In this document: in pieces, positions 1,403 through 16,164 of the stretch
Layout of the letters: each line of letters starts with the position of its first letter
Numbering within the stretch: the stretch's first letter is position 1
IMG/VR virus record: IMGVR_UViG_3300031857_001552
Coordinates: 1-22,183 of that record
DNA from: a virus
Length of the DNA stretch: 22,183 nt
Direction: 5' to 3' (one strand)
The notes under the pieces: generated by a model
Told to the model about the DNA's origin: nothing
The model's input: only the letters and a program-made list of their open reading frames with translations
The model's database searches: none
Translations under genes and position numbers: made by a program

Positions 1403-3240
1403 TGGCATTAAGTGCGATTAATATTGTTTTAAATGCGGTCACGGATCTATTCAATAGAGATGTGAAGGCCGCGGCCGATACGATGGAAAAGTCATCGGCC
1501 AAAATGCAGCAAAGCGCAAACAAAGCCGGTCAAGCCATTGAACAATCATTGGGGTCGGGCCAATTGCGCCAAAAGATTGCAGCCGTCACGGCCGAAATTG
1601 ACGAACAAAAACAAATCACCCGTGAATTCATGATGGAATTGGAAAAGTTGCGCCAAAAGCGTGACACCATGTCGAAAATGGATGTTCAGGGTCAAAAGCG
1701 AGTTCGTCAGGAAATCGAACAAACCAAAGCGGCAATCAAAGACCAGTCAATCGCCGTTTCTGAATTGACTGCAAAAAAACAAGGATTCACCCAACAATTG
1801 GGAATTACGAATCAAACATTGGGTGGAACACGCGCCGCATTGAATGGGTTGGCCACATCATTTTCATCAGTTAGTTCAATTATCGCAATTGTCGCAGACG
1901 ACAACAAAGCGTTGCGCAACACATTGATGGGTTTGAACGCGGCATTGAATTTCAGCGCGGCCGTCATGCAAGTCAAAGATTTGCAATCCCAATTTGGTGG
2001 GTTAACAAAGTTTTTGGCCAATCCATTTGTTATTGCCACGGTTGCCATTGGCGCAGCCGTTGCCGCCATTTATGCGTTTTCGGATGGTTTGGATGGGGTG
2101 AATGAAAAAGTCAAGGAGGCGCAAAAACAACAATCCGAATACAACAAACAAATCCGTGATTTTGCCACAAAGATTCAAGAATTGGGCGAAACGGAATTGG
2201 AAACGAATAAACGCCGTTTAGAAGAAACGCAAAGAATGCGCAAAAAATACAACGACAACATGCGATTGTTGTTTGATGATTTGACACGCGCAGAAGGCGA
2301 AGAAGATAGGGCCGCAATCAGAACAAAGATTCAAGCCGCAACGGCAAAGTTGACCGAACTTGAATACCTTGAAAAATCGTATCAAAAAAACATTGAAGCG
2401 ATAAACAAAGAAGCGACCGACAAACAAGCCAAATTGGATTCCGAAGCGGCAAAAAAACAAAGCCAAAGGCGAAAAACTGCATTGGCTGAAATTAAAAAAA
2501 GCGCAGAAGAAGTCAAAAAAGTTGAGGCCGATTTGATTGAGTGGTTGGACAAAAAGCGTTTTGAAGGTGGTGAAAAAGCAAAAAAGAAAGCGGCCGAAGA
2601 TTTAAAACAATTAACCGGTGCAAATCTGATTGGCGGGACGGCCGTTGCGCCCGTTTTGGTTCAAGTTAAAATTGACCCGAAGTCATATTCACAAATCGTT
2701 CAGGATTTTGACAATCTAATGGTTCAAATGGCAGCCGCCGTTGAAAAATTGGGCGAAGATATGGCCGTAACATTAGGTGAAACGCTTGGAAATGCGTTGG
2801 CGGGTCAAGGAAACGGCATCGAAGGGTTTGTCCGTTCAGTTGTTGGGCAATTGGGTGAATTTGTTAAAACAGTCGGCAAAATGTTGATTGCATACGGCAT
2901 AAGCGTTGAAAAATTCAAAACGGCGTTTGTTCAACCGGAAGCCGCGGTGGTTGCCGGTATTGCGATGGTTGCGTTAGGTACGGCGGTTGCAAGTCAAATG
3001 AGAACCGGCCCAAGCGTTAGCGCGTTTGCCGATGGTGGTATTGTAAGCGGACCAACATTGGGTTTGATGGGTGAATATCCCGGCGCGCGCAGCAACCCGG
3101 AAGTCATTGCACCTTTGGACAAATTAAAAACATTGATGAAGCCCGAACAATCATCCGGTTATGTTGCGCAAACGCACATCAGCGGACGCGATTTGGCCAT
3201 CGTTTTGGAAAGATACAATAAAGATTCACGGCGCGGATAA
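1402..3240 (+). CDS. Tape measure protein, 612 aa
   Basis: This long protein follows the chaperones and sets tail length. Residues 20-150 are coiled-coil-like and rich in Lys, Gln, Glu and Ala. A hydrophobic segment rich in Ala, Val and Ile lies at about residues 208-226, a second charged helical region at about 240-400, and another hydrophobic stretch (VVAGIAMVALGTAVASQM) at about 516-533. The C-terminus has the common phage tape-measure motif FADGGIVSGPTLGLMGEYPG with APLDKL. At roughly 0.15 nm per residue a tail of about 90 nm is expected (inference from known tape measures). The start overlaps the previous stop (TGATG) and the stop overlaps the next start (TAATG at 3238-3242). Confidence 0.9.
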   Translation: MALSAINIVLNAVTDLFNRDVKAAADTMEKSSAKMQQSANKAGQAIEQSLGSGQLRQKIAAVTAEIDEQKQITREFMMELEKLRQKRDTMSKMDVQGQKRVRQEIEQTKAAIKDQSIAVSELTAKKQGFTQQLGITNQTLGGTRAALNGLATSFSSVSSIIAIVADDNKALRNTLMGLNAALNFSAAVMQVKDLQSQFGGLTKFLANPFVIATVAIGAAVAAIYAFSDGLDGVNEKVKEAQKQQSEYNKQIRDFATKIQELGETELETNKRRLEETQRMRKKYNDNMRLLFDDLTRAEGEEDRAAIRTKIQAATAKLTELEYLEKSYQKNIEAINKEATDKQAKLDSEAAKKQSQRRKTALAEIKKSAEEVKKVEADLIEWLDKKRFEGGEKAKKKAAEDLKQLTGANLIGGTAVAPVLVQVKIDPKSYSQIVQDFDNLMVQMAAAVEKLGEDMAVTLGETLGNALAGQGNGIEGFVRSVVGQLGEFVKTVGKMLIAYGISVEKFKTAFVQPEAAVVAGIAMVALGTAVASQMRTGPSVSAFADGGIVSGPTLGLMGEYPGARSNPEVIAPLDKLKTLMKPEQSSGYVAQTHISGRDLAIVLERYNKDSRRG

Positions 3241-5747
3241 TGGCAAGGATTTACAAAGGTTCGTTTTTATCAATTACAAATGTTGAATACCGGGTTGAAT
3301 TATGGGATTCACCATCAGGAACAACACCGGAAATTGTTGCGCGTTTATACAATGCACGGGTTCAATCAGCCGGCGGATATATTGAAGGCCAAACATGTTG
3401 TTTTGACAAATTAGAAGCATTGAATTCATCGGTTGAATTAACATTGGCCGGTGATGGAATCAGTATTGAAAGGCAAGGCGAATCAGATTCAGTTTATTCC
3501 AATTTTATCAGGCCATCACGGGCAATTGCCCAATGGGTGATGCCGGATCAAAATACATTGGATGATTTTGTCGGCATTCAAACCGAAGCCGAAACCGCAT
3601 GGGCGATGTTGATTTATCGCAATGATTCATTGATCCATGTTGGCCGCGTATTGGCCGACCAAATGACGCGATTGCGCGAATCCATACAAAGCAAACCAAT
3701 CATTGATTTGGTGGCTGTGGATGGCCTTGAATTGATGGATGGGTACAAAGTACAATCATCATGGTTTTCGGATGAATACATCACAATCAACCAGTTGTTT
3801 CGCCGTTGTTTGGACACATTGGATTTGTCGGATTATTGGGTTGTCAATGGAACGCCACAACAATATTTGTATGATGGCACATTGTTAAACGAAGATAATG
3901 CGGCCCGATTAGGGTTCGACATGTATAAACTTTTTGAATATACATTTTTGGAAAATTTTGATCCGTTTACGGATGTCAAAGTTATTGACACGGTTGGATG
4001 GCAAATTGAACCAAATTATATTTCAGCAAAACAAGCGTTGGAAAATGTGTTGTTGATGTTTGGGGCGCGATTCACTCATGAAAATGGCGCGTATTATGTG
4101 ATCCCATTCAACGCGTATAATAACACGACATCAATCAATTTGCGTCAATATTCGTATACCGGGCAATATATCGGGACGACAACATATTCACACCGTCAAA
4201 CAATTGGCAACGATGTTCGGCCATTGTGGATGGCAAAACCATCATTGTACTATCAACCAGCTGCACAATCGGTGACAATAAACACGCATCGTCAAAATGT
4301 GGCAAAAGCGTTGCGCAGTTACCCAAATACATCATCATCAACATTGTCGTTGATTGCCACGGATATTCCAACCGGAACATCACCGGATGCCGCACCGATG
4401 CGCATTCGTTTTATGGCAAAATCATTCAAACGATCCGACACATTGGGTGGGGTTTTGTATGTCGAAGATTCAACCGATGTTTACTACAATATCAGGTTGC
4501 GGAATTCGGGTGGCTCTTATGTTTATTTGGACGCGAATGGATATTGGTCCGCATCGGGGAATTCGGGAAATCAATTGTATCGCATGCCAACCAAAGACAT
4601 CAAAGGCGGTTGGATCACATCGGAATTTGAATTGTCGGTGACAACCGCGCCGGTCGGTTACACCCGATTGGAAGTCAACATGTTTGTTCATGGTGTTATT
4701 CTTTCCTATTCGGGCGGTGGCAAATGGAAAAACGGCAATTCAGCGTTGAAGGATTTTTGGGGTTCAATTCAGGTTTCATTTGCAGATGCGTCACCATATC
4801 AAAATGCGGATTATATTTTTGACATCACGGAGGTCATCACCGCATCCACAGCCAATTTGGCGAATTCAACACCCATCACAATTGAATCGCCATATTATAC
4901 GGATTCCCTGAAATACGGAATTGGTAATTGGTTGGTGTTTAACGGCACAACCGATGTTTTGGCATCGGATTGGTATGGCGGTTGGGATTCAATTACACAC
5001 GGAACAATCACCAAAATGTTGGGGTTACAAATGGCATCGATTTACGCCAATTTTGTTCCGGTGGTTCGTGGAACATGGATTGATTCCGGGTCATTGACTG
5101 CAATCAAATCATTATATTTTGACAATTATTCATGGGTTTTGAACGGGGTCAAATACAATTGCCGTTCGGAACAATGGGATGGCGAATGGATTGGTGTTTC
5201 ACCAGTTTATACCTTGACAACATCATCCGGCGAAGGTTTAAAAGTCGAGCAATCACAAACCGGGAATCTGAATAATCGTTTGAATTATGTTGAATCAGCG
5301 GTGACAAATTTGAATTCAGCGATTTCCAATGTTCCGCAACAAGTTTTGGAACATTTGGTCAATGATGCCGAAGGCGCGCCCGCATCGCAGCCAACATTGA
5401 ACACCCGTTGGGAGGTGATGTTGAGTTATGACGATTCAACGGAATTGGTTAATTGGCGGATTCAGGAACACAATGCATCGGTGACATACACGGCCGGAAC
5501 GCACACAATTACGAACGGTTATGAATTGATAATTGGCGATAGTACGGATGGGAATGTAATTGTGAATTTACCAAATGCGACGGAAAGCAAGGGCAAAAAA
5601 TATTATTTCAAAAAGATTGCCAATCCACACACATTGACAATTTCGGGCAATGGATACAACATTGATGCCAATGCAACAAAGGTGTTAAATCAAAACTATG
5701 AAACATGCACCGTCATTTCAAATGGCGTTCAATGGTATTTGGTATAA
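3240..5747 (+). CDS. Large tail-tip / baseplate protein with C-terminal fibre-like domain, 835 aa
   Basis: The gene follows the tape measure, where distal tail and tail-tip genes lie. The N-terminal half (1-350) is a mixed alpha/beta protein with the pattern ISAKQALENVLLMFGARFTHENGAYYVIP, as in tail-tip proteins of Bacteroidetes phages. The middle (400-670) is beta-rich and has RSEQWDGEWIGVSP near its end. A short coiled coil (about 676-705, NLNNRLNYVESAVTNLNSAI) probably trimerises it. Residues 756-835 form a small beta domain (ITNGYELIIGDST, LPNATESKGKKYYFKKI, ISNGVQWYL) frequent at phage fibre ends. It probably combines a hub role with receptor contact. No enzymatic motif was recognised. 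Confidence 0.7.
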   Translation: MARIYKGSFLSITNVEYRVELWDSPSGTTPEIVARLYNARVQSAGGYIEGQTCCFDKLEALNSSVELTLAGDGISIERQGESDSVYSNFIRPSRAIAQWVMPDQNTLDDFVGIQTEAETAWAMLIYRNDSLIHVGRVLADQMTRLRESIQSKPIIDLVAVDGLELMDGYKVQSSWFSDEYITINQLFRRCLDTLDLSDYWVVNGTPQQYLYDGTLLNEDNAARLGFDMYKLFEYTFLENFDPFTDVKVIDTVGWQIEPNYISAKQALENVLLMFGARFTHENGAYYVIPFNAYNNTTSINLRQYSYTGQYIGTTTYSHRQTIGNDVRPLWMAKPSLYYQPAAQSVTINTHRQNVAKALRSYPNTSSSTLSLIATDIPTGTSPDAAPMRIRFMAKSFKRSDTLGGVLYVEDSTDVYYNIRLRNSGGSYVYLDANGYWSASGNSGNQLYRMPTKDIKGGWITSEFELSVTTAPVGYTRLEVNMFVHGVILSYSGGGKWKNGNSALKDFWGSIQVSFADASPYQNADYIFDITEVITASTANLANSTPITIESPYYTDSLKYGIGNWLVFNGTTDVLASDWYGGWDSITHGTITKMLGLQMASIYANFVPVVRGTWIDSGSLTAIKSLYFDNYSWVLNGVKYNCRSEQWDGEWIGVSPVYTLTTSSGEGLKVEQSQTGNLNNRLNYVESAVTNLNSAISNVPQQVLEHLVNDAEGAPASQPTLNTRWEVMLSYDDSTELVNWRIQEHNASVTYTAGTHTITNGYELIIGDSTDGNVIVNLPNATESKGKKYYFKKIANPHTLTISGNGYNIDANATKVLNQNYETCTVISNGVQWYLV

Positions 5748-6226: not shown

Positions 6227-7942
6227 ATGTCAGATTTATTGAATTCCGCGTCATTGGTCATGATACCAAGCGGATACAAAGAGGATGTTGTTTATTCTCA
6301 AATTCCCACAAACGGAAGTGGCGATTTGTCATTCACCCGTGCATCCAACGGAACCCGAATAAATAGTGCGGGGTTGGTGGAGGTTTGCCCGTGGAATTTG
6401 TATAGTTATTCGGAAATTTTTTCAGGGGGTGGGTGGTTTAACGATGGCACATCAACCGCAACCAACAATTTTGCAACTGCACCCAATGGAACTATGACCG
6501 CTGCAAAAGTGGTTGCAAATACTGCAAACGGCTATGCGTATAAAAGCACTATTGTAGCGCCAAATACATACACTTTAAGTTATTATGTCAGAGCGAGTGC
6601 AAATACAACGATGTCAATAGCAATCAATGACCCAGGTGGCAGCGGAAGTAGCGTTAAATCCAATATTGCAGTTACAACGCAATGGCAAAGGATTGAACAT
6701 TCGGCGTTAGTGACATTAGGGACAAGTTTTTATATTGATTATGCTGCATTACAAACAGGCGTTGATTATTTTATTTGGGGCGCTCAGGTCAATCTTGGAA
6801 GCACCGCCAAACCCTATTTCCCCACTACCGACCGCCTAAATGTTCCACGCCTTACCTACCAAAATGGGGGCGGGGGGTGTCCGAGTTTGTTGTTGGAGAA
6901 GCAGAGTACGAATTTGTTTACCTATTCGGAGCAAATGGATAACTCCGATTGGTTCAAAAATAATTTGACAATAACCGCAAATTCTACAACTTCACCCGAT
7001 GGAACGCAAAACGCGGATTTGTTGGATGACGGAACGGCATCAAGTACACAACATTGGATTTATCAAGGTACATCATTCTCAAATAGCACCGCCTACACTA
7101 TTTCATTTTACGCAAAATATGTAAGCCGTAAATATATGGCGGTAAACATTTACAATGGTTCGACATCGCAATATGTTGTTTACGACATTCAAAATGGTTC
7201 GGTGTATGGTTCAACGGGCGATGTTACTGCGTCAATTACAAGCGTTGGTAACGGATGGTATAGGGTTGTTTATACACGCACAATGTCGGCAAGTGGTTCG
7301 CCAAACTTTCGTATTGCAATGGCAGATGACACGGGAAATGAAACATACACGGGAAGCAATAAACAAGTTTATTTGTGGGGAATGCAATGCGAAGCGTCAA
7401 GTTATCCAACTTCGTATATTGTTTCCACATCATCAAGCGCAACAAGGGTGGCGGATGCTTGTTTTAAGACGGGCATTGGTTCGTTGATTGGGCAGACGGA
7501 GGGGGTACTTTTTGCGGATGTTAATTGGATAGTTAAACCAGAAGCGGGTTCGCCTATTGTTGGAATTTTAACTTTAAATAACAATGTTGCAAATCTAGAT
7601 AATTGTATAATTTTGGGCATTGAAAGACAATCGGGCGGAACTAATAGAGTTTATTCCTTCGTTCAAAATTCAGGGTCAACGGTTGCGGGATTATTTGGCT
7701 CAAACATTACAAATGGTCGTTATAAAATAGCATTTGCATACAAAAACAATGACTTTGTTTTATATGTGAATGGTGTACAAATTGCAACCGATACTAGCGG
7801 AACCCCTCCAACTACAAGTGAAGTTTTAGTTGGTCAAAGATTCCAAGGGGATAGTTTTTTAATGAATGATTCAATAAATGAAACCGTCCTTTTCAAAACC
7901 CGCCTAACCAACGCCGAATTGGCATCCTTAACAACTCTATAA
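6227..7942 (+). CDS. Tail fibre / receptor-binding protein with duplicated carbohydrate-binding-like module, 571 aa
   Basis: Residues 1-56 form a cap with the phrase SFTRASNGTRINSAGLVEVCP. Two related beta-sandwich modules follow: residues 57-207 (NLYSYSE, W, APNGTMTAAKV, TYTLSYYVRAS, IWGAQ) and 229-408 (NLFTYSEQ, W, SPDGTQNADLL, AYTISFYAKYVS, LWGMQCE). They resemble CBM_4_9-type jelly rolls. A Gly-rich linker (GGGGCPSLLLEKQSTN) lies between them. Residues 420-571 look like a LamG/concanavalin-A-like domain (YKIAFAYKNNDFVLYVNGVQIATD). The protein probably binds host surface glycans. Codon use is more mixed (TTA, AGT, GCA) than in the tail and replication genes, suggesting recent exchange. Confidence 0.8.
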   Translation: MSDLLNSASLVMIPSGYKEDVVYSQIPTNGSGDLSFTRASNGTRINSAGLVEVCPWNLYSYSEIFSGGGWFNDGTSTATNNFATAPNGTMTAAKVVANTANGYAYKSTIVAPNTYTLSYYVRASANTTMSIAINDPGGSGSSVKSNIAVTTQWQRIEHSALVTLGTSFYIDYAALQTGVDYFIWGAQVNLGSTAKPYFPTTDRLNVPRLTYQNGGGGCPSLLLEKQSTNLFTYSEQMDNSDWFKNNLTITANSTTSPDGTQNADLLDDGTASSTQHWIYQGTSFSNSTAYTISFYAKYVSRKYMAVNIYNGSTSQYVVYDIQNGSVYGSTGDVTASITSVGNGWYRVVYTRTMSASGSPNFRIAMADDTGNETYTGSNKQVYLWGMQCEASSYPTSYIVSTSSSATRVADACFKTGIGSLIGQTEGVLFADVNWIVKPEAGSPIVGILTLNNNVANLDNCIILGIERQSGGTNRVYSFVQNSGSTVAGLFGSNITNGRYKIAFAYKNNDFVLYVNGVQIATDTSGTPPTTSEVLVGQRFQGDSFLMNDSINETVLFKTRLTNAELASLTTL

Positions 7943-12539: not shown

Positions 12540-12708
12540 AATCGCAATTGGCGATGAACCAACAATCACAAAAACACAATTAAAAGCCATTTTAAGCGTA
12601 ATTAAGGACACCGAAACGAAAATTTTGGTTAAGGTACACAAAGACGGTAAAAACACAATTTTAAGCAATGAAACAAGCCACAACGCAATCAAAAGATTAT
12701 TTTCGTGA
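12514..12708 (+). CDS. Hypothetical protein, 64 aa
   Basis: The protein begins MQRITEMVEIAIGDEPTITKTQLKAILSVIKDTETKILVKVHKDGKNTI. It is soluble, helix then beta strands, with no motif I recognise. It overlaps the upstream tiny gene by 26 bp and the downstream DnaA-domain gene by 41 bp in a different frame, unusually deep overlaps for this genome; one of the starts may be misassigned. Confidence 0.4.
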   Translation: MQRITEMVEIAIGDEPTITKTQLKAILSVIKDTETKILVKVHKDGKNTILSNETSHNAIKRLFS

Positions 12709-13177
12709 ATTTGTCAAAGAACGCAGCAAAAACGCGCGGTTGTCATTAGACATCATTCGAATGCGTGACCAGTACGAACGCGAAATCGCTACATTAAAAA
12801 ATGAAATTATTTATCCCAAAGTAAAATTTAAAACAACATTGGACATTCAACATGAAAACGCCGTTAGCCGGTTGGATTTGATGAATCAGGTGTTGCAATG
12901 TCTTTGTGAAGTCGGATCAATGACACCGGGAAAAATAATGGGTCGATTGCGCGAAGGTGATGTCATAATGATTCGGCACATGTATTCATTTATTTTGCGC
13001 CGTCATTATCATTTTACATTTGAGCAAATCGGAAACAAATTGGGGCGCGACCATTCGTCAATCATTCACGCCGTGAACACATTTGAATCATGGAAAAAGA
13101 CCGACCGACATGCGCGCCAGCTGTACAAAAAAGCGTTGGAAATTTTAAAATTGGAAAGCGATGGAGAAAGCGAGTAA
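12668..13177 (+). CDS. DnaA domain IV-like DNA-binding protein, 169 aa
   Basis: Residues about 100-140 match the DnaA C-terminal DNA-binding domain: MIRHMYSFILRRHYHFTFEQIGNKL then GRDHSSIIHAVNTF (126-139), the GRDHTTVIHA signature that contacts DnaA boxes. The N-terminal 95 residues are a charged helical region and contain no AAA+ ATPase (no Walker motifs). The protein therefore could bind DNA like DnaA but not use ATP. It stands just upstream of a helicase-loader-like gene and DnaB, so it may be the phage origin-binding protein or interfere with host initiation. ATG 12668 overlaps the preceding gene by 41 bp; a start further inside is possible. Confidence 0.75.
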   Translation: MKQATTQSKDYFREFVKERSKNARLSLDIIRMRDQYEREIATLKNEIIYPKVKFKTTLDIQHENAVSRLDLMNQVLQCLCEVGSMTPGKIMGRLREGDVIMIRHMYSFILRRHYHFTFEQIGNKLGRDHSSIIHAVNTFESWKKTDRHARQLYKKALEILKLESDGESE

Positions 13178-13619
13178 CACATACAAAGAACGCCAAACAG
13201 TCGCAAACATGTCGGAAATGTGGTTTGTTGATTACATGGAATCGGTTGGAATGCCAGTTCAAAGGGTTGGGTTTAACGAAAAAGAAATGAACATCAATGG
13301 GTTTTGGAACATTCATCGGTTGATCCGGTCATTGCCTGATTTTGTATATTTCAACGCCAAAAAACAACGCATGATGTATTTCCATATTAAAGGAACAAAT
13401 AAGATGAAAATTGACGATGTTATTAATTACAGCGCATTTGAATTCCTTTTTGGTTTGAATGCTGATTTGTTCATTGTTTTTATGTTTGAACCGGGCAAGC
13501 CAATCAAACGAACCATGCGCCAAATACGGGAAATGATGACCGGATTGACAATCGCAAAATGGCATGATGGCAAACAATATGTTGCATTGAATTTAAAACA
13601 ATTAGATGGCAAAGGATAA
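13161..13619 (+). CDS. Hypothetical protein, possible divergent nuclease, 152 aa
   Basis: It overlaps the DnaA-like gene by 17 bp and the next gene by 14 bp. The central part reads LIRSLPDFVYFNAKKQRMMYFHIKGTNKMKIDDVINY. 'PD' (59-60) followed about 15 residues later by a strand with x-x-K (HIK, 75-77) resembles the PD-(D/E)xK nuclease core, but the acidic residue before x-K is replaced by His, so catalysis is doubtful. The following beta strand LFIVFMFE fits the fold. It may be a recombination or replication nuclease-like protein; this is a weak inference. Confidence 0.45.
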   Translation: MEKASNTYKERQTVANMSEMWFVDYMESVGMPVQRVGFNEKEMNINGFWNIHRLIRSLPDFVYFNAKKQRMMYFHIKGTNKMKIDDVINYSAFEFLFGLNADLFIVFMFEPGKPIKRTMRQIREMMTGLTIAKWHDGKQYVALNLKQLDGKG

Positions 13620-14184
13620 AAAATCATTTGTGTTGTATTGCGATATTATACACACAATCGAACAATTAACGGATGAGCAAGCCGGACACCTATTCAAACA
13701 TGTTTTGTATTATGTGAACGACCTGAATCCCGACACCGATAATGTCATCACCAAAATTGCATTCGAGCCAATCAAACAACAATTGAAACGCGATTTGGTG
13801 CGATACGAAAAAATCCGTGAACGCAATTCATTAAGCGCACGCATGCGATGGGATGCGAACGCATGCGAACGCATGCCAAACGATGCAAAAAATGCCGATA
13901 ATGATAATGATAATGATAATGATATAAATATAGTATTGGAACAAAAAGCAAAAAAGCCAAAAAGGTTCAGCAAACCGCCGGTTGATGATGTGCGTCAATA
14001 CATGGCCGAATTAAACATGAATGACATGTCACAACGATTTGTTGATTACTACGAATCAAATGGATGGAAGGTTGGCAAAAATCCGATGAAGGATTGGAAG
14101 GCAGCCGTTCGAACATGGAAACAACAAAACAATGATAAACAACCAAAACAAGAATCTTTTTACAAACCCTTAAAATTTGACTAA
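13606..14184 (+). CDS. DUF6291-like protein with replisome-organiser/helicase-loader architecture, 192 aa
   Basis: The N-terminal domain (1-75; KSFVLYCDIIHTIEQLTDEQAGHLFKHVLYYVND...FEPIKQQLKRDL) fits DUF6291 proteins of Bacteroidetes phages. A flexible linker with the repeat DNDNDNDND (about 97-105) follows. The C-terminal 70 residues (DVRQYMAELNMNDMSQRFVDYYESNGWKVGKNPMKDWKAAVRTW) match the short C-terminal helical domain common in phage replication initiator and helicase-loader proteins. It is located between a DnaA-like protein and DnaB. The linker-coding DNA carries GCATGC-containing tandem repeats and an AT-rich GATAAT array that look like a replication origin. Confidence 0.65.
   Translation: MAKDKKSFVLYCDIIHTIEQLTDEQAGHLFKHVLYYVNDLNPDTDNVITKIAFEPIKQQLKRDLVRYEKIRERNSLSARMRWDANACERMPNDAKNADNDNDNDNDINIVLEQKAKKPKRFSKPPVDDVRQYMAELNMNDMSQRFVDYYESNGWKVGKNPMKDWKAAVRTWKQQNNDKQPKQESFYKPLKFD
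13841..13876 (+). repeat. Iteron-like direct repeats with GCATGC cores
   Basis: ATGCGAACGC occurs twice in tandem (13853-13862 and 13863-13872) followed by ATGCC. The palindrome GCATGC occurs at 13841, 13861 and 13871, so spaced 20 and 10 bp, close to helical turns. The 10-bp period is not a multiple of three and so is not explained by a peptide repeat. Confidence 0.6.
13897..13923 (+). repeat. GATAAT hexamer array, AT-rich
   Basis: Four perfect GATAAT units (13897-13920) plus GAT, followed by ATAAATATAG. It encodes alternating Asp-Asn in the linker of the replication protein. Unit gain or loss keeps the reading frame. It is adjacent to the GCATGC repeats and easily melted. Confidence 0.8.
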
Positions 14185-14596: not shown

Positions 14597-14929
14597 ATGA
14601 AAACATTCATAATCACAATCGAAATCGAACACACCGACCGTCAATTCAATTCTTATCCGGTGCAAACATTCATTGCGGAAATTGGTTCACCAGCTGCAAA
14701 TTGGGTCAAAACAATGAAAAAAGCATTTCGGGAAACAACATTGGGTGAAAAAGCCGAATCGATAACCGTTGAATATGCGATCCGCGAACAAACAAACCAT
14801 GTCCGAATTGTCATGGGCAATGTAAACAACATTGACAAATGGCGCGTGTATGTCAATCAGGAATTGAAATTTGAATCCGAAAATTACACACACGCATTGG
14901 CAATCGCACAATACTACAAACAACAATGA
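14597..14929 (+). CDS. Hypothetical protein, 110 aa
   Basis: The protein starts with a beta strand (MKTFIITIEIEH), then SPAANWVKTMKKAFRE, further strands (AESITVEYAIRE, HVRIVMGNV, WRVYVNQEL) and a final helix (YTHALAIAQYYKQQ). It looks like a compact alpha/beta protein, but I do not recognise the family. Its stop overlaps the DnaB start (ATGA, 14926-14929), so it is probably translated with the helicase. Confidence 0.45.
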   Translation: MKTFIITIEIEHTDRQFNSYPVQTFIAEIGSPAANWVKTMKKAFRETTLGEKAESITVEYAIREQTNHVRIVMGNVNNIDKWRVYVNQELKFESENYTHALAIAQYYKQQ

Positions 14930-16164
14930 CGAACGAAGAATATATCATCAGTCAATTAGCGTTTTATTCTGAATTGCATCATCATTTGCCAAAGATTCAA
15001 TCAAAATGGTTTACAAATAAATCATTGGGCAAAATAGTTAAAGCGATGCGCATTGTCTATGAATCAGGCGAAACCGTCAACCCGTTCACCATTCGGAAAT
15101 ATTTGGATCGAGCGGAAACAATATTGGCCGCGCAATTATCGGCCGCATGTTCGGGATTGCCATCAATCAAAAATCAGGTCATCGAACTACAATACAATTT
15201 TGTTTTAAACAATATCAAAAACCGGGTCATTGGTTTGAATTTTGACGGTGGGTTGATTGAAGCAAAGGCGCAATTGCAATCAATTATTGATGAAGCACAA
15301 ATTGACATTGGCCATGAGCCGAAAGACATCAACGCCGTTTCCAAAGATGTCATGACCAACATTGTCGATGCAATGTCGCGCGGCAACCAGTTGACCGGAA
15401 AACCATCAGGTTGGCGCAAACTTGACAAAGCGATTGGAGGTTACAACGCCGGTGACATGATTGTTGTGGCCGGTCGCCCCGGAATGGGAAAGACGGCAAT
15501 TGCATTGACATTCGCCCATGATTTCGCGTTGCGTAATGGCCGCGCATTGTTCCTATCATTGGAGATGTCAAACGAACAATTGGCCAAACGCTATGTATCA
15601 CTCATTGGTGAAATACCAAATGGACGCATTCGTAATCATTCATTGTACAAAGAAGAAATCGACAATGTTCAACAATTCCTAAATACACCACCGATGACAT
15701 TCCACATTGATGACGATCCGGATAATTCATTGCAAATGATTCGTGGCAAATGCAAATTGCATAAGGCAAAACACGGATTGGATTTGATTATCATTGATTA
15801 CATTCAGTTGATTCGAGTAAACAAAAGCCATTCGCGTGAACAAGAAATCGCAGAGATTTCACGCGGGTTGAAGTTGATGGCAAAGGAATTGAAATGCACC
15901 GTGATGATATTGGCGCAGTTATCACGCAAACCCGAAGAACGCGCAGACAAACGCCCATTGTTATCAGATTTGAGGGAATCAGGTGCAATCGAACAAGATG
16001 CGGATGTTGTGTTGTTTCCGTTCCGTCCGGCCTATTATGACAAAGAACAACCGCCAATTGAACAAGCCGAATTGATTATCGCAAAGAATAGGCATGGGGA
16101 ATCCGGGGTGATTGATGCGACATTCGATGGCAAGTTAACGAAGTACACGGAGATAAAAACATGA
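14926..16164 (+). CDS. Replicative DNA helicase, DnaB family, 412 aa
   Basis: The protein has a short N-terminal helical domain (1-100), a linker and a RecA-type motor: Walker A GRPGMGKT (183-190), catalytic-Glu strand ALFLSLEMSNEQL, Walker B LIIIDYIQL (287-295), Gln loop LAQLSRKPEER (329-339), LRESGAIEQDAD (349-360) and the arginine-finger region KNRHGESG (387-394). These are all hallmarks of DnaB helicases, which unwind DNA 5'-3' at the fork and recruit primase. At 412 aa it is slightly shorter than bacterial DnaB, as usual in phages. It follows the loader-like gene in one operon and overlaps the methyltransferase start (ATGA 16161-16164). Confidence 0.93.
   Translation: MTNEEYIISQLAFYSELHHHLPKIQSKWFTNKSLGKIVKAMRIVYESGETVNPFTIRKYLDRAETILAAQLSAACSGLPSIKNQVIELQYNFVLNNIKNRVIGLNFDGGLIEAKAQLQSIIDEAQIDIGHEPKDINAVSKDVMTNIVDAMSRGNQLTGKPSGWRKLDKAIGGYNAGDMIVVAGRPGMGKTAIALTFAHDFALRNGRALFLSLEMSNEQLAKRYVSLIGEIPNGRIRNHSLYKEEIDNVQQFLNTPPMTFHIDDDPDNSLQMIRGKCKLHKAKHGLDLIIIDYIQLIRVNKSHSREQEIAEISRGLKLMAKELKCTVMILAQLSRKPEERADKRPLLSDLRESGAIEQDADVVLFPFRPAYYDKEQPPIEQAELIIAKNRHGESGVIDATFDGKLTKYTEIKT

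Follow-up and report, generated by a model that had tools for sequence, protein, structure and literature searches.

A putative replication origin nested within the DUF6291 initiator gene of an uncultured phage

The putative initiator gene, its neighbours and its repeats

The window, a 22,183-nucleotide linear fragment of an uncultured phage (IMG/VR record IMGVR_UViG_3300031857_001552), carries on its plus strand a gene for a 192 aa putative initiator, situated between a gene encoding a DnaA-domain protein and one encoding a DnaB-like helicase. The features of the locus are as follows:

12668-13177, plus strand: neighbouring gene, protein with DnaA domain IV only (Bac_DnaA_C, PF08299, E 5.9e-11)
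13606-14184, plus strand: putative initiator gene (192 aa); DUF6291 N-terminal domain (aa 7-82), disordered linker, C-terminal module (approximately aa 126-176)
13646-13654, plus strand: DnaA-box-like 9-mer TTATACACA, the only one in the window; rejected as a conserved part
13804-13851, plus strand: candidate DNA-reading segment YEKIRERNSLSARMRW, codons 67-82, at the end of the long helix
13843-13938, plus strand: synonymously frozen block, the proposed origin core (codons 80-111, synonymous identity 0.91)
13843-13896, plus strand: iterons, with ATGC in register at 13843, 13853, 13863, 13873, 13883 and 13892
13897-13938, plus strand: candidate AT-rich unwinding element, (GATAAT)4.7 running into GATATAAATATAG, of lowest duplex stability
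14926-16164, plus strand: DnaB-like replicative helicase (PF03796, E 6.4e-84), the downstream partner gene

The product of the 13606 gene matches DUF6291 (PF19808) over residues 7-82 (E 3.1e-22; 79 bits against a curated cut-off of 27.2); this is its sole Pfam match, with none to the lambda O family. Its AlphaFold model (pLDDT 72.8) contains helices at residues 14-19, 23-37 and 47-87, a low-confidence stretch at approximately 94-117 that corresponds to the linker and is predicted to be disordered, and a folded region at 126-176. Among viral proteins, the only fold matches to this model are other DUF6291 or replication-like proteins, and the PDB contains no relative by sequence or fold, so that a DNA-binding fold is unsupported by a solved structure. 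A literature search returned no paper on DUF6291 and none on the origin of a Flavobacterium phage. The DUF6291 gene adjoins replication genes (helicase or primase) both in the window and in isolates; among the 45 loci with enough flanking sequence, a relative of the 12668 gene lies upstream in 24 and a relative of the DnaB-like helicase gene lies downstream in 31. A further frame at 13161-13619, located between the DnaA-domain gene and the initiator gene and overlapping both, encodes a 152 aa protein with no Pfam or PHROGs match.

A sequence-only reading of this DNA had proposed a phage origin within the 13606 gene on the basis of three GCATGC palindromes, a tandem repeat and a series of GATAAT units that runs into GATATAAATATAG, all of them in linker-coding DNA between a DnaA-domain gene and DnaB. 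The palindromes are present as claimed (13841, 13861 and 13871), the two repeat arrays are real and correctly placed according to the sequence itself and Tandem Repeats Finder, and Pfam and AlphaFold bear out the position within the linker and between those genes. Tandem Repeats Finder reports a period-10 array at 13835-13876 (score 56) and, after a gap of 20 bp, (GATAAT)4.7 at 13897-13924 (100%, score 56), these being the two strongest arrays in the window. The ATGC words are spaced at approximately one per helical turn, in 10-bp register, and perfect ATGCGAACGC units occupy the middle of the array (13853-13862 and 13863-13872). With the protein held fixed, redrawing of synonymous codons equalled the period-10 repeat in 21 of 20,000 trials, and when 715 coding blocks from 11 genes of the window were scored for repeats, the top-scoring blocks all fell within 13822-13983. 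The palindrome did not survive as the functional unit, and we reject it: GCATGC occurs 8 times in the window against 12.3 expected, and relatives keep GCAT-N-CG instead. What is conserved is a direct 10-bp repeat, ATGCGAmCGC, accompanied by degenerate copies.

Nearest-neighbour energies calculated across the whole 22 kb place the least stable 30-bp window at a start of 13904 and the least stable 45-bp window at a start of 13897, within the AT-rich tract directly downstream of the iterons. Of 102 relatives, 88 have the matching tract within the bottom 1% of its surroundings for duplex stability. The residues that it encodes differ among these relatives (DN, VN, SV, TD) while its codons remain AT-rich, the third positions of Asp and Asn codons being nearly always T, and the number of GATAAT repeats varies as well (one relative, L013, has one more).

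Constraint on DNA among relatives

Synonymous codon identity was scored, at positions where residues agree, in 31 non-redundant relatives that carry an RW-type segment (the segment types are described below). It is 0.51 over codons 2-79, 0.91 over codons 80-111 and 0.53 over codons 112-192, and the best 20-codon block (0.93) was reached in none of 20,000 permutations. At the protein level this block is, if anything, less well conserved in these 31 type-A relatives. The residues K-N-A-D at 95-98, for example, are encoded as AAA AAT GCC GAT in all 31, even though Lys, Asn and Asp codons are mixed elsewhere in the gene. Because synonymous codons are frozen over 80-111, the constraint acts on DNA. 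An equivalent block is found in 23 relatives with a second iteron, type B (ACCCAA), and a GGRP-type segment, where the best block has an identity of 0.91 compared with 0.52 in codons 2-80.

The repeats themselves were evaluated against a null model of synonymous resampling in 43 protein clusters. Linker repeats exceed the null (p<=0.05) in 24 clusters, while about half of the 43 individually fall short of significance; control regions reached the same threshold in 2 of 43 clusters (N-terminal) and 5 of 43 (C-terminal). The lags of all 24 significant clusters lie near multiples of 10 bp (9-10, 19-21 or 29-30 bp). Loci L082-L133 had been fetched by DNA pattern and supply seven of the 43 cluster representatives (L086, L089, L093, L097, L100, L111, L117); when these seven are removed, significance persists in 17 of the 36 clusters left, where chance would give about 2. 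The sequence-only reading had proposed, as a check, to look for iterons and an AT-rich zone at the same place in relatives, and recur they do, strongly so by synonymous identity, by the repeat null and by duplex stability. Repeats in linker-coding DNA, an adjoining AT-rich tract and conservation as DNA, three of the marks of a lambda-type intragenic origin, are found at this locus.

The iteron word is closely associated with initiator genes. The exact 20-bp pair ATGCGAACGCATGCGAACGC has 23 matches in 2.9 million viral contigs, all in initiator linkers: 15 in near copies of the window gene and eight more in DNA coding for linkers of proteins that resemble initiators. A looser pattern, GATGCGACCGCATNCGACCGCAT, recovered 36 stretches, of which six were already found as DUF6291 relatives and the 30 newly fetched all read as initiator genes, and across type-A loci 109 of 112 type-A iteron pairs lie within the initiator gene. 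Cellular genomes contain three matches to the 20-mer, one in an initiator-like gene and two outside initiator genes; because of these last two, the association is strong but not absolute. The initiator-like case (L101, positions 2992-3516 of a Chitinophagaceae contig) is a DUF4373-like gene with ATGCGAACGC in both the region coding for its N-terminal domain and the linker. On an uncultured Oscillospiraceae contig (L103, 6700-6830), three ATGCGAACGC units adjoin a degenerate array of trinucleotides and do not fall in any obvious initiator gene; the same genome has a DUF6291 gene with matching iterons elsewhere (L217), and the stretch at 6700-6830 may be a remnant or a second origin. BLAST of a 41-bp iteron array matched only Microcystis phages, which carry an intergenic CGAACGCA array, and gave no match in E. 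coli. In Microcystis phage Mwe-JY07 (L233, 1801-1858) this array is located approximately 900 bp upstream of a putative replication protein O gene, and is possibly the same iteron outside the gene.

The same anatomy is present in the isolates lillamy, RAP44, elemoA, phi19:3, Harreka_1 and 11b, including a 20-bp TCGCATAGCGATAAAAATAA repeat in elemoA and TCAACA or TCAACT repeats in 11b; the candidate lies near 30.8 kb in the Olleya phage Harreka_1 and near 14.0 kb in the Flavobacterium phage lillamy. Detrended GC-skew minima of six complete or near-complete phages lie 1.3-6.6 kb upstream of the candidate and follow the direction of transcription, being located in the six isolates at transcription divergence points where such points exist.

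The candidate reading segment and alternative roles of the block

The type of iteron can be predicted from the stretch of protein that the DNA immediately upstream of it encodes. An RW segment is accompanied by iteron A in 53 of 53 cases and a GGRP segment by iteron B in 45 of 53. Iteron type therefore tracks the adjacent 15-20 residues and not the swappable C-terminal module, the largest C-terminal class being an even mixture of iterons A and B (32 and 35). As protein, segment 67-82 is conserved; its DNA, as far as codon 79, for the most part is not, codons 70-79 varying synonymously. In some genes the segment appears swapped: L035, L036, L079 and L111 have a GGRP-like core, yet carry the RW segment and iteron A, and in the opposite direction L081 combines an RW-like core (0.83 to the window) with a GGRP segment and CCCAAA repeats. 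Since such genes carry the iteron of their segment, the determinant is placed at approximately residues 65-84, where the long helix ends, and it is these residues that would contact DNA.

Synonymous constraint and co-variation of reader and site indicate a DNA element to which a protein binds but do not single out an origin, and so the block could instead be a cis-acting site of the gene's own product with another function, such as an autoregulatory operator or other regulatory site. We consider this unlikely. The block lies mid-gene and is always followed by an AT tract of record-low stability, which an operator would not need, and the setting of these genes beside helicase or primase genes would be left unexplained.

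A smaller probability still attaches to the element being a binding site of the 12668 protein and not of the DUF6291 protein. The 12668 gene is close by and DnaA domain IV is a DNA-binding domain, but the iterons are unlike TTATCCACA, an upstream relative is present in barely more than half of the loci that could be inspected, and iteron type tracks DUF6291 residues. The window holds no cluster of TTATNCACA boxes, only one near-match in 22 kb: a single 9-mer within one mismatch of TTATCCACA, against 8.1 expected in shuffled sequence (none of 100 shuffles gave fewer). That 9-mer, at 13646, is rejected as a DnaA box, as codons 14-17 have a synonymous identity of 0.45 in relatives. The scarcity of such 9-mers may perhaps reflect avoidance, given that the phage encodes a DnaA-domain protein. 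As no DnaA box is conserved, the DnaA-domain protein is the less likely reader, and of the two products that the sequence-only reading had named as possible binders, the evidence favours that of 13606 as the putative reader of the iterons.

It is very unlikely that the block is primarily a recombination hotspot for exchange of C-terminal modules. These modules (at least eight) do change just downstream of the block, and the phage encodes a RecT-like annealing protein, but this would account neither for iteron types that are specific to lineages nor for the way these types are coupled to upstream residues; serving as a recombination junction may be a secondary property, or side effect, of the block.

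Least credible are the two explanations that require no DNA-level function. Repeats could be incidental to the low complexity of the protein linker (slippage, DNDN and similar), as the predicted disorder of the linker and the variable GATAAT number might suggest, but repeat lags of 10, 19, 20 and 29 bp are not codon multiples, an identical DNA word is read in different frames (phases 1 and 2 in most DUF6291 genes, 0 and 1 in L097), and synonymous identity of 0.91 versus about 0.5 excludes a coding by-product. A structured mRNA element is just as implausible and is rejected, since folding is not significant (z-scores of -1.5 and -1.8 for type A, +0.1 for type B) and the constraint continues through the AT-rich tract, although type A could form hairpins containing GCAUGC.

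Origin model and comparison with known systems

Because its letters are preserved across relatives far beyond the needs of the protein, the origin very probably lies inside the initiator gene, with 13843-13938 as the core of a lambda-like origin nested in the gene for its own DUF6291 initiator. Comparative sequence analysis thereby supports the origin proposed by the sequence-only reading. For this block we infer protein binding, melting, helicase recruitment and origin activity, in the following scheme. The DUF6291 protein would bind the direct repeats, one helical turn apart, via the basic end of its long helix (approximately aa 65-84); the assembled complex would strain and then open the (GATAAT)n tract directly downstream; and the linker, together with the swappable C-terminal module, would recruit the phage DnaB encoded next door or, in relatives, another helicase or loader.

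Whether initiator-origin cassettes are general in tailed phages we regard as an even call; if they are, the DNA word would be encoded directly behind the 15-20 residues that read it, reader and site would always travel as a unit, and one iteron, ATGCGAACGC, would be common to DUF6291, DUF1376 and DUF4373-like initiators, in different frames and in hosts of different phyla, with specificities changing by swaps of a short segment. DNA letters preserved beyond coding need at a predicted origin give DUF6291, a large family of unknown function, a likely role in origin binding. The origin is predicted to within approximately 100 bp for well over a hundred Bacteroidota-type phages with known sequences, and their naturally matched combinations of reader and site could be used to learn how initiators achieve specificity. 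In other initiator families, too, testing for synonymous constraint can reveal origins that are hidden in the genes.

In lambdoid and Stx phages, origins of the lambda type occupy the middle of gene O, where an AT-rich tract comes after the iterons (PMC7466680). The candidate resembles ori-lambda in its position mid-gene, in the linker between two protein modules of the initiator, and in the order of direct-repeat iterons and AT-rich tract. It differs in that the initiator is DUF6291, which by sequence does not belong to the lambda O family, the iterons are repeated at 10-bp intervals, a phage-encoded DnaB lies next door, and several types of iteron are exchanged along with a segment of the protein. 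Francisella phage KIRK provides a putative intragenic origin outside the lambdoid group, with four repeats and an AT-rich region inside a replication gene, argued by comparison with lambda (PMC7924643); its protein is Phg_2220_C, and the proposal, as set out in the relevant part of that report, comes from the sequence of one phage with no comparative test.

Phage proteins of the DUF1376 type are also similar: in 35 of 37 clusters their linkers are more repetitive than the synonymous null allows, and the ATGCGAACGC unit is present in many of them. One such gene (L098, IMGVR_UViG_3300049919_000020, frame 253-1248) contains ten TGCGAACGC copies, with none elsewhere in 14 kb, and reads the iteron unit in all three phases. 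These genes differ in their dominant lag (7 or 11 bp) and downstream array, and the DUF1376 N-terminal domain has no sequence-level match to DUF6291. New here are the DUF6291 initiator, the proof by comparison of relatives that the constraint acts on DNA, the existence of several iteron types that change along with a short stretch of protein, and an iteron shared with DUF1376 initiators.
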